Shown piece by piece: positions 37,691-40,389 of a stretch of DNA of 44,574 nucleotides (position 1 is its first letter; each line of letters opens with the position of its first letter). Source of the stretch: Nitrospirota bacterium (lineage in GTDB: Bacteria; Nitrospirota; Thermodesulfovibrionia; Thermodesulfovibrionales; UBA6898); the NCBI GenBank assembly GCA_003252075.1, contig QKDO01000112.1, positions 1 through 44,574 on the forward strand. The letters run 5' to 3'. A program made the position numbers and the translations under genes. The notes beneath the pieces are model-generated. The model saw only the letters and a list, made by a program, of their open reading frames with translations. It had not been told where the DNA came from and did not search any database.

Positions 37691-38182
37691 TCAGGCAGAC
37701 ATGCTAGGTGAATGGGAGACTGGATCGGCGATTGACGATTCGGCCCGCCACTTCAGTTTCTTCAGGTAGCGTCGAGCTGAACCTGTGCCGAAGAAATTCA
37801 TTATCCTGATCTTCACGGAGCCGGGGAAAAGCATGCCTGCCTGTTCGATCAGGATTGTCTGGGTGAAGACGCATCCGTCTTTCTGATCGGCAATCTCATA
37901 AATCTCCTGGATATATCCTCTTCCTGGAAGCGTACCGCCCTTCAGATGCAGCACGCAGCGCACCGGTGCTTCGTACTCCATGAGCTCTGCGGTATAGTTG
38001 TTCTCGCCTCCGATAAGATGATATCTGATGCGATACTGTGCCCCGGCCTGAGGTTCACCAACCTTGACGGGAATTACCTTCTTTATTTTCGGGTTCCATG
38101 CCATGCAATGAACCGGGTTTGCGACAAGGCCCCAGAGCTTTTCCGGCCGCACCGCGATATGTATGTGGTTCTTTAGTACCAT
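37691..38182 (-). CDS. SRPBCC (START/Bet v1-like) domain protein
   Basis: The 163-residue protein starts MVLKNHIHIAVRPEKLWGLV, typical of SRPBCC/polyketide-cyclase-like ligand-binding proteins, with WNPKIKKVIPVKVGEPQAGAQY, YEAPVRCVLHLKG and TQTILIEQAGMLFPG following. Such proteins form a helix-grip with a hydrophobic pocket; ligand unknown. No signal peptide. The start is ATG 38182; the promoter has an extended -10 (TGGTATAAT) only ~25 nt upstream, and no Shine-Dalgarno is visible in the short leader. Convergent with the CBS-ACT gene (2 nt between stops) and divergent from the Cys-rich repeat gene. Confidence 0.85.
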   Translation of the reverse strand: MVLKNHIHIAVRPEKLWGLVANPVHCMAWNPKIKKVIPVKVGEPQAGAQYRIRYHLIGGENNYTAELMEYEAPVRCVLHLKGGTLPGRGYIQEIYEIADQKDGCVFTQTILIEQAGMLFPGSVKIRIMNFFGTGSARRYLKKLKWRAESSIADPVSHSPSMSA

Positions 38183-38260: not shown

Positions 38261-38289
38261 TTGTAAATGAGGAGCCCTTTTTATATAAT
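38261..38289 (+). promoter_or_regulatory. Promoter of the Cys-rich repeat protein gene
   Basis: TTGTAA (38261-38266) and a perfect TATAAT (38284-38289) have a 17-nt spacer, predicting a start near 38297 and a ~20-nt leader with AAGGAGG. This is one of the best promoters in the window, arguing for strong expression. Confidence 0.75.
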
Positions 38290-38317
38290 CAACCGTATAA
38301 AAAGCAAGGAGGATGAT

Positions 38318-39106
38318 ATGTTCAAAAAGTTCGGAATTCTGATATTGGCAGTGCTGTTTGTAGGTTCCATGGCCTGGGTGCCTGTTATTGACTCTGTCGG
38401 CGCAGCAGTGAAATGTGACTGCAAGGCCGGAGAAAAGGGTTGTACCTGCGGCAAGGGCTGCGGCTGCGAGCACTGCAAGACGGGCAAGGGCGAGTGCAGA
38501 TGCCATGCAGGCGGAAAGGGCTGTGCCTGTGGCAAGGACTGTAAATGTGAGCATTGCATGACCGGCAAAGGCGAATGCCACTGCAAGGCCGGAGAAAAGG
38601 GTTGTACCTGCGGCAAGGGCTGCGGCTGCGAGCACTGCAAGACGGGCAAGGGCGAGTGCAAGTGTCATGCAGGCGGAAAGGGATGCCAGTGTGGAAAAGA
38701 CTGTAAATGTGCTCATTGCATGGCAAGTGGCACGGATGCATCGGTACAGAAACCGACCGCGGATGCCGAATATGCAAAGACCATGAAATCCAAAGGCGGT
38801 GATTTCACGGTAACCTATACCAGCGATCCGGATGCAATACCGGTCAATAAGATCATAAGCTGGAAACTGAAGGTCGAGACAGCGGATGGGCAGGCAGTTA
38901 AAGATGCGGAGATTGCAGTGAATGGCGATATGCCTGAGCATGGACATGGTCTTCCGACCCAGCCGCAGGTTACCAAGAATTTTGGTGACGGGACCTACCT
39001 TGTCGAAGGAATAAAGTTCAGCATGCCCGGCTGGTGGACCATGACCTTTGCTGTCAAGGCCGCCGGGAAATCCGACGCAGTGACGTTTAACCTGCAGGTG
39101 AAATAG
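38318..39106 (+). CDS. Secreted protein with four 27-residue Cys-rich repeats and a YtkA/FixH-like domain
   Basis: The 262-residue protein has a signal peptide (~1-29; MFKKFGILILAVLFVGSMAW) and then four contiguous repeats of exactly 27 residues (33-140), each CxC-x6-CxC-x3-CxC-x2-C, i.e. seven cysteines, 28 in all, with Lys/Gly between. Units 1 and 3 (KAGEKGCTCGKGCGCEHC) and units 2 and 4 (HAGGKGC.CGKDCKC.HC) form two types. The C-terminal ~100 residues (~160-262) resemble the YtkA/FixH-like beta domain (WKLKVETADGQAVKDAEI, MPEHGHG, GIKFSMPGWWTMTF), a family linked to copper and oxidase assembly. The whole looks like an extracytoplasmic metal-binding protein; metal and role are inference. 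AAGGAGG lies 5 nt before the ATG and a very strong promoter is upstream. MauG follows 17 nt later. Confidence 0.85.
   Translation: MFKKFGILILAVLFVGSMAWVPVIDSVGAAVKCDCKAGEKGCTCGKGCGCEHCKTGKGECRCHAGGKGCACGKDCKCEHCMTGKGECHCKAGEKGCTCGKGCGCEHCKTGKGECKCHAGGKGCQCGKDCKCAHCMASGTDASVQKPTADAEYAKTMKSKGGDFTVTYTSDPDAIPVNKIISWKLKVETADGQAVKDAEIAVNGDMPEHGHGLPTQPQVTKNFGDGTYLVEGIKFSMPGWWTMTFAVKAAGKSDAVTFNLQVK
38414..38737 (+). repeat. Coding tandem repeat: 4 x 81 bp (2 x 162 bp)
   Basis: Four 81-bp units encode the cysteine repeats. A higher-order unit of 162 bp is duplicated: 38418-38498 is identical to 38580-38660 over 81 bases. The identity is exact at DNA level, implying a recent duplication or gene conversion, and potential copy-number change by slippage. 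Confidence 0.9.
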
Positions 39107-39123
39107 CTTCTGCGTAGTGGCCC

Positions 39124-40389
39124 ATGCGAAGAAATAACAGGGTCTTTTCTGTTTGGCGCTGCGTAATTGCAGCCATACTGATTGCCCTCTCCATGCCGGG
39201 TCTCCTCCCGGCATGGGAGGCTGCAGCAGAAACAGGGGACCATCAGGAGATACCGCTATGGACCGAAGAAGAGAAAAAGGAACTGAGCGCTCTTTCACTT
39301 TCTTCCCTGCCTCCCCTGCCCAAGGACCCTTCCAATAAGTACGCAGACGATCCTAAAGCCATAGCGCTAGGCAAGAAGATTTTTTTTGACAAGCGGTTCA
39401 GTGCGAATGGCAAGGTCTCCTGCGCAACCTGCCATGACCCTGAGACGACCTTTACGGACAAGCTGCCGCTTGCAAAGGGCATGGGGACCACAACACGCAG
39501 GACCATGCCGCTCATTGGCACTGCATACCTTTCCTGGTTTTTTTGGGATGGAAGAAAGGACAGCCTCTGGTCTCAGGCAATTGGCCCGATCGAAAGCTCT
39601 GTTGAGCATGGATTTACCCGCTCCATGTGCGCGCATCTCATCACGGACTTGTACAAGAAAGAATACGAAGAACTCTTCGGCAGGCTGCCAAAGTTAGATC
39701 ATAAAAGCTGCCCGCCCAAGGCGAGTCCGGGAACAGGGAACCCGGCAGCACTGAGGGCCTGGAAGTCGATGAAGCCTGAGGATCGTGTGGCGGTCAACAG
39801 AATATATGCAAACATCGGCAAGGCGATTGCGGCGTTTGTGCGACAGATCCTACCTGCGCCCGCTCCCTTTGACCGGTATGTTGACGCCGTAGTACAGAAT
39901 GATGCAGAGAAGGCGCGCGAACTCATGGGTAATGACGCTGTTGATGGCTTGAAGCTCTTCATCGGCAAGGCAAAATGCACCAACTGCCATATAGGGCCGC
40001 TTTTTACGAACAGCAGCTTTCATGATATCGGACTGAACAACCCTAAAGACAATGGAAGGGCTGACGGCATAGATAAAGTGTTGTCTGACGAGTTCAACTG
40101 TCTCGGCAAATATAGCGATGCAAGACCGGAAGAATGCTTGGAGCTGAGATTCATTGACACGAACAAGGCGAAATACCGCGGCGCATTCAAGACACCCACC
40201 CTGCGCAATGTTGCAGAAAGGCCTCCCTATATGCATGCAGGACAGCTTAAGACCCTTTCCGAAGTTCTGAGCTTTTATCGCAGGAATGCAAGTGACGAGC
40301 TTGAACACCGGGACTTTTCTGATCAGGAGCTTGCGAAGATCGAGGCTTTTCTCAAGACCCTGAGCGCTCCGCTGAACTATCCGAAGTAA
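39124..40389 (+). CDS. MauG/cytochrome c peroxidase-type di-haem protein
   Basis: The 421-residue protein has a signal peptide (~1-36), two haem-c sites Cys100-Ala-Thr-Cys-His104 and Cys285-Thr-Asn-Cys-His289, and the CCP/MauG pattern (NGKVSCATCHDPETTF; FFWDGRKDSLWSQA; GPIESSVEHG; KYRGAFKTPTLRNVAERPPYMHAG). Such proteins reduce hydrogen peroxide with cytochrome c or carry out post-translational oxidations. ~420 residues is larger than CcpA (~330) and like MauG-related family members. The start ATG 39124, 17 nt after the Cys-rich gene stop, indicates one operon. Periplasmic location. No terminator hairpin seen after it. Confidence 0.88.
   Translation: MRRNNRVFSVWRCVIAAILIALSMPGLLPAWEAAAETGDHQEIPLWTEEEKKELSALSLSSLPPLPKDPSNKYADDPKAIALGKKIFFDKRFSANGKVSCATCHDPETTFTDKLPLAKGMGTTTRRTMPLIGTAYLSWFFWDGRKDSLWSQAIGPIESSVEHGFTRSMCAHLITDLYKKEYEELFGRLPKLDHKSCPPKASPGTGNPAALRAWKSMKPEDRVAVNRIYANIGKAIAAFVRQILPAPAPFDRYVDAVVQNDAEKARELMGNDAVDGLKLFIGKAKCTNCHIGPLFTNSSFHDIGLNNPKDNGRADGIDKVLSDEFNCLGKYSDARPEECLELRFIDTNKAKYRGAFKTPTLRNVAERPPYMHAGQLKTLSEVLSFYRRNASDELEHRDFSDQELAKIEAFLKTLSAPLNYPK

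Follow-up and report, generated by a model that had tools for sequence, protein, structure and literature searches.

What is the function of an exported protein that carries 28 cysteines ahead of a YtkA domain, and whose gene directly precedes that of a MauG-type di-haem enzyme? Such a gene pair is present in a contig of 44,574 nucleotides from a Nitrospirota bacterium. This whole stretch of DNA was analysed and is called the window here.

Gene organization and the cysteine array

The first gene (38318..39106, + strand) encodes the exported Cys-array and YtkA protein of 262 aa, defined by its open reading frame, Pfam matches and orthologues. The sequence AAGGAGG before its ATG reads as a ribosome-binding site (38306..38312, +). 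Further upstream is a sigma-70-type promoter, TTGTAA-17-TATAAT (38261..38289, +), with 10 of 12 consensus matches. The sequence-only reading had called this promoter very strong; the promoter is present, but its strength is a judgement from the consensus only, and the region has four promoter-like sites where shuffling gives an expectation of 1.8. Directly upstream of the promoter, the opposite strand carries a small SRPBCC-like ORF (window 37691-38180, -), which is outside the module.

Residues 1-30 (MFKKFGILILAVLFVGSMAWVPVIDSVGAA; 38318..38407, +) constitute a predicted Sec-type signal peptide, recognized by sequence features and kept in the orthologues; it reads without a twin Arg. The YtkA domain (PF13115; residues 157-243; 38786..39046, +) shows a Pfam score of 55.1 bits against a cut-off of 25.9 (E 1.3e-14). 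The gene for the di-haem enzyme of 421 aa (39124..40389, +) starts 17 nt after the stop codon of the first gene. The enzyme matches PF03150 (CCP_MauG) with 127.4 bits against a cut-off of 25.6 (E 9e-37) and has two haem c motifs, CATCH (C100-H104; 39421..39435, +) and CTNCH (C285-H289; 39976..39990, +).

Between the signal peptide and the YtkA domain, four units of 27 residues constitute the cysteine array (residues 33-140). They are unit 1 (residues 33-59; 38414..38494), unit 2 (residues 60-86; 38495..38575), unit 3 (residues 87-113; 38576..38656) and unit 4 (residues 114-140; 38657..38737), all on the + strand, the last with a diverged tail. The spacing in each unit is CxC-x6-CxC-x3-CxC-x2-C, and all 28 cysteines of the protein are in the array. 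The seven-cysteine spacing is observed four times; when the same residues were shuffled 20,000 times, at least one instance appeared in only 75 shuffles. TRF detected periods of 81 bp and 162 bp. Units 1 and 3 are near-identical with two codon differences, indicating that the array grew via a recent duplication of two units. The signal peptide, the four units of seven cysteines, the YtkA domain with MPEHGHG and the MauG-family gene 17 nt downstream had all been described in the sequence-only reading, and they were borne out by the ORF reading, TRF and Pfam.

The array together with the YtkA domain and an adjacent MauG gene is observed at six other loci (UBA6898, UBA6905, G217, G113 C4, G113 C10, and G186), so the absence from other genomes that would have refuted the sequence-only reading is not observed. 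In two further array copies, the enzyme is a remnant (G113 C18) or is unlinked (G124). G113 thus has three array copies, with two complete pairs elsewhere in the genome. Its remnant is a truncated di-haem enzyme of 87 residues adjoining an intact Cys-array YtkA gene (L036:5847-6110). Another exported CxC protein of ~126 aa (CNCGxxCxCDTMSRNAGKCTCGKxM), without a Pfam match, is encoded beside this array gene and remnant in G113 (L036:6431-6811) and on another contig of the window's own genome (C49; L002:1510-1890, -). A relative of it is carried by Desulfobacterota (L263).

The array is not a widespread secreted family. In 246 Nitrospirota genomes, profile matches were confined to the family of the window, apart from a sixth, weak match (E 6e-4) in G023 from another family. 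In 247 genomes of Desulfobacterota, the phylum of L068, the single weak match belongs to another CxC protein family. Plasmid records yielded YtkA matches only and no array. Among the curated metallothionein families of Pfam, none was above the cut-off, the best being PF02068 at E 2.

The array-bearing lineage forms a single clade of the enzyme tree (support 1.0), and the array-less G388 is nested within it (0.93). This topology indicates that the array was gained once and lost once. As G388 has the pair without the array, the array is dispensable. The sequence-only reading had placed the cysteine array at the centre of the system. The array is real, but it is a lineage-specific addition, and what is conserved is the pair of YtkA and MauG.

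A CxC-rich spacing is typical of thiolate clusters, and the array probably binds metal. Alternatively, it could be a secreted disulfide-rich, adhesive or structural domain, or a sulfur/thiol redox relay. Export of the protein fits this explanation, as do the variable unit number (the core motif CGKxCxCxHC is present in 2-5 copies per protein) and the window's own genome, which has three DsbA-like matches and one VKOR. On the other hand, the seven cysteines per unit and the mostly odd totals argue against a closed disulfide fold: the mature proteins of nine array genes have 28, 28, 15, 21, 21, 36, 27, 35, and 35 cysteines (odd in six of nine; the 36 of G124 counts one signal-peptide Cys). Considering also the thiolate-cluster spacing and the fusion to a copper-type YtkA domain wherever the array is found, a disulfide, structural or relay function is quite unlikely. 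The DsbA-like and VKOR genes make periplasmic thiol oxidation a real concern for a metal-binding array, whose cysteines would presumably be reduced; early Cu(I) loading may be one way to protect them.

Thiolate clusters of the CxC type are not specific for any one metal. The array, gained only once, could handle zinc, cadmium, mercury or arsenic after a chance fusion to a YtkA-MauG pair with an unrelated copper function. The fusion persists, however, in every genome of the clade that has the pair, G388 excepted, and in all three copies in G113. The YtkA domain also points to copper, as do nearby copC and copD genes: in G217, a gene for CopC (E 5e-17) and one for a CopD-like protein, which falls slightly short of the Pfam cut-off (E 9e-7), are located ~2 kb from the pair. 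We consider a non-copper array improbable, and the binding of copper in particular is slightly favoured.

Distribution of the YtkA-MauG gene pair

Full-length relatives of the array protein are confined to the genus and family of the window. Relatives of its C-terminal part are distributed more widely among 396 Nitrospirota genomes. Most relatives outside the family contain two YtkA domains (~280 aa) and no Cys array, and their genes are followed immediately by the same di-haem gene. Among 84,980 species-level genomes, 191 relatives were detected. The 80 loci retained from these belong to Nitrospirota, Chloroflexota, Desulfobacterota, Pseudomonadota, Gemmatimonadota, Acidobacteriota, and Rokubacteria; the partnership is spread over at least six bacterial phyla. 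An adjacent di-haem gene on the same strand accompanies 80 of 89 distinct G-W-W (GWW) domains, being downstream in 76 and upstream in 4.

The co-occurrence is strict also at the genome level. The partner-clade enzyme, defined by a score over 580 bits to profile A3, is present in 18 of the 396 Nitrospirota genomes, and a GWW-type YtkA gene is found in precisely those 18. Eight cases of unlinked YtkA genes were inspected, with a ninth genome, that of L084, as a control. The enzyme is encoded elsewhere in the genome in six of them (G124 and the genomes of L097, L101, L115, L126, and L057, the last at a contig end). These unlinked enzymes score 556-607 bits, and other paralogues score less than 100. 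The two cases without the enzyme (L064 and L095) are both metagenome bins.

Because the scan of 84,980 genomes was partly seeded with the pattern [IML]KF[SNQ]M[PT]GW, the unbiased counts exclude its loci and come from samples of the Pfam family. In Nitrospirota, GWW is observed in 19/19 adjacent versus 1/98 non-adjacent domains (Fisher p 6e-21, which is not a probability, GWW being a single clade). The sole non-adjacent GWW domain is the G124 copy, whose enzyme is unlinked. In Pseudomonadota, HxH and GWW are observed together in 15/15 adjacent (11/11 without the four centre genomes) versus 0/37 non-adjacent domains. GWW domains are one clade in the tree (support 0.84), which implies a single retained origin. 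The correlations of the Trp and HxH residues with the enzyme are thus not independent, and the Trp may be conserved for other reasons. For this reason, the association between Trp and MauG was dropped as independent evidence.

No wider conserved operon was recognized. Clustering of neighbours at 88 loci revealed nothing beyond the pair that is common to more than 14 loci, and the genes common to several loci are generic regulators or transporters, or reading-frame artefacts. Genome-wide, copper genes are not a regular feature of the neighbourhood outside the pair.

Several other genes were observed near the pair. At three loci (L060:7745-9226, L063:5323-6699, and L076:7570-9111), the gene after the di-haem gene encodes a YtkA domain of the MPEMGHG type and a long C-terminal part, which in L063 matches a Phenol_MetA_deg-type beta-barrel in Pfam. 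In some Nitrospirota, the pair may thus have a further partner in the outer membrane. An exported protein of 321 aa (HHPxGGAGLGQxGPIRTVSATTL) without a Pfam match is encoded near the pair in G388 and G113 (L041:1930-3846 and L038:11154-12119). An extra single-YtkA gene without the metal loop is found in G388 and near the pair in G217.

A literature search for MauG together with YtkA, with most subscription papers outside its scope, returned nothing relevant. The YtkA-MauG partnership is widespread and apparently undescribed. The cysteine array is a local elaboration of this conserved, putatively protein-modifying partnership.

The YtkA domain, the di-haem enzyme and their possible mechanism

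The structure model of the YtkA domain (pLDDT 93.3) is a beta-sandwich most closely related to CrdA of H. pylori, including the Ag-bound structure 9ll4 (Z 13.4, rmsd 1.9, 100 residues). The next unrelated fold match is far below, at Z 9.2. CrdA is also the sole sequence match in PDB (E 3.5e-4); in this alignment, the CrdA loop MPEMPGM is paired with MPEHGHG of the window (38930..38950, +). The Met-rich Cu(I) loop of the CrdA type, MMxEMPGMxxMxEM, is absent. In its place, H208 and H210 are candidate copper ligands. H208 is conserved in 100% of the partnered clade versus 6% of the other YtkA domains, which carry Met there; H210 is common to part of the wider YtkA family. It is very likely that the domain binds copper, although the change from the Met loop to HxH, which took place in the same ancestor, makes this an extrapolation.

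Two tryptophans are specific to the partnered clade in the column comparison. W182 (38861..38863, +) is present in 98% of the clade and W239 (39032..39034, +) in 100%, versus 0% of the other YtkA domains in both cases. W239 is a candidate substrate of the di-haem enzyme. These residues could instead serve as a docking surface or as structural residues.

In the enzyme, W141 (of FWDGR, an inter-haem-type Trp) and E161 are conserved among the partners. Y385 (40276..40278, +) is conserved in 96% of 80 partner enzymes. Residues 351-391 (132-172 of the aligned fragment) and residues 260-300 of MauG align at equal length, with Y385 on Tyr294, a haem ligand of MauG. Tyr-His ligation characterizes MauG and BthA, versus the Met-His ligation that canonical bCCPs require (PMC6405878). 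Judging from the alignment, Y385 occupies the distal position of the six-coordinate haem, as Tyr does in MauG-type enzymes. The curated models were not reached: the enzyme scores 162.1 bits to TIGR03791 (MauG equivalog; cut-off 443.85), with no mau genes adjoining, and 135.6 bits to TIGR04039 (MbnH; cut-off 362.85), and its partner protein does not match TIGR04052 at E up to 10. It is thus a MauG-type enzyme that falls in neither named group, although the MbnH structure 6e1c is among the structures matched. The genome of the window has a second, distant MauG-like di-haem gene (L045:9352-10422, contig C75) beside a DsbA-like gene (C75:23438-23728).

One explanation of the pair is a copper chaperone accompanied by an ordinary peroxidase, which would remove the peroxide that copper would turn into radicals, with Trp used for electron transfer or docking. 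The fold of the enzyme model (pLDDT 77) does not favour MauG (Z 21.0) over bCCPs (Z 22.9), although the identity to MauG is higher (32-33%), and the operon link and co-occurrence fit any functional coupling. Nevertheless, Tyr is found instead of Met at the second-haem ligand position, and the strict one-to-one tie to a YtkA subclade exceeds the need for a general peroxidase. This explanation is therefore rather unlikely. The sequence-only reading had proposed a metal buffer coupled to peroxide handling. An extracytoplasmic role with soft metals fits the copper context of YtkA, CrdA and CopC, but the emphasis on peroxide does not agree with the Tyr ligand, a mark of the long-range or protein-modifying oxidation of the MauG/BthA type, or with the link of the enzyme to a YtkA subclade that has acquired two Trp.

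Modification of a YtkA-domain Trp by the partner enzyme has an even or slightly better chance. The known product of MauG is a Trp-Trp cross-link, in methylamine dehydrogenase (PMC6405878, PMC3912023). By analogy, W182 and W239, both specific to the enzyme-linked clade, could be cross-linked into a TTQ-like redox cofactor or a covalent staple. However, the partner is a small metal-binding fold rather than a dehydrogenase, and the operon includes no other subunits; such a cross-link is the least probable of the alternatives considered.

We give even chances to the reading of the locus as a two-protein extracytoplasmic copper module, in which Trp is modified by the MauG partner and to which a thiolate array has been attached in this lineage. 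Copper would enter the M-P-x-H-x-H-G loop of the CrdA-like YtkA domain. With peroxide or by electron hole-hopping, the di-haem enzyme would oxidise W239 and/or W182 to kynurenine or a similar product. As has been suggested for MopE/SACCP and CorA/CorB, the modified Trp may complete or tune the copper site. The array of 2-5 units would act as an exported, metallothionein-like thiolate buffer of high capacity for Cu(I) or comparable soft ions, and metal may flow from it to the YtkA copper site, which it would feed or protect.

MauG-like di-haem enzymes are common, but to our knowledge substrates have been established for very few of them. A constant partner that is inherited together with the enzyme, and that combines two Trp specific to its subclade with a His-x-His metal loop, provides a short list of candidate substrate residues, and the partnership extends to culturable Pseudomonadota. 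If the copper module is real, protein-derived copper ligands made by MauG arose on at least one further fold, and far more widely than in methanotrophs. The Cys array is a test case for a metallothionein outside the bacterial cytoplasm.

Comparison with known systems

CrdA is periplasmic and binds Cu (PMC9182242). It shares the beta-sandwich and the position of the metal loop with the YtkA domain here (PDB 9ll2, 9ll4). It differs in its Met-rich loop without His, in the absence of Trp at the W239 position, and in an operon with an efflux pump instead of MauG. The YtkA domains of CtaK and YcnJ from Bacillus subtilis support copper delivery to cytochrome oxidase (PMC13344008, PMC12362106), and no other studied YtkA domains were reported as of 2025 (PMC12362106). 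They are likewise extracytoplasmic PF13115 domains, but no MauG partner is described for them and they have no Cys array.

The MbnP/MbnH system is a precedent for Trp modification by a MauG-like partner. It, too, comprises two genes, one for a MauG-like di-haem enzyme and the other for an exported protein with a conserved Trp, and it is distributed far beyond methanotrophs and methanobactin producers (PMC3621798). The partner here has the YtkA/CrdA fold, not that of MbnP.

CorA and MopE have a Cu site of two His and a Trp-derived kynurenine and are encoded beside co-transcribed MauG-like CCPs; in M. alcaliphilum, knock-out of the partner enzyme did not abolish the inferred copper function of the partner (PMC3912023). 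The pair here resembles MopE/SACCP and CorA/CorB in the combination of a copper-type partner with a MauG-like CCP, with two invariant His and an enzyme-linked Trp. The difference is that MopE and CorA have another fold size (15-21 strands), are surface-attached and lack a Cys array. Neither structure was among the PDB sequence matches or the fold matches listed, comparisons that a remote relation might escape. It is conceivable, at somewhat less than even chances, that the pair represents a hitherto undescribed group of copper proteins spanning several phyla. In this group, a ligand or cofactor derived from Trp would be made within the CrdA/YtkA fold by a MauG-type enzyme, independently of the MopE/CorA and MbnP folds, with a thiolate-array fusion in one Nitrospirota lineage.

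The array resembles metallothioneins (SmtA, MymT) in being Cys-rich, with CxC/CxxC clusters and repeats, and in being likely unfolded without metal. Known bacterial metallothioneins are cytosolic (PMC7558416), while this array is exported and fused to a folded domain. Csp1 provides extracytoplasmic thiol-based storage of Cu(I) (PMC7558416). This protein is exported via Tat and folds as a rigid four-helix bundle, whereas the array here is a repeat of Gly, Lys and Cys behind a Sec-type signal.
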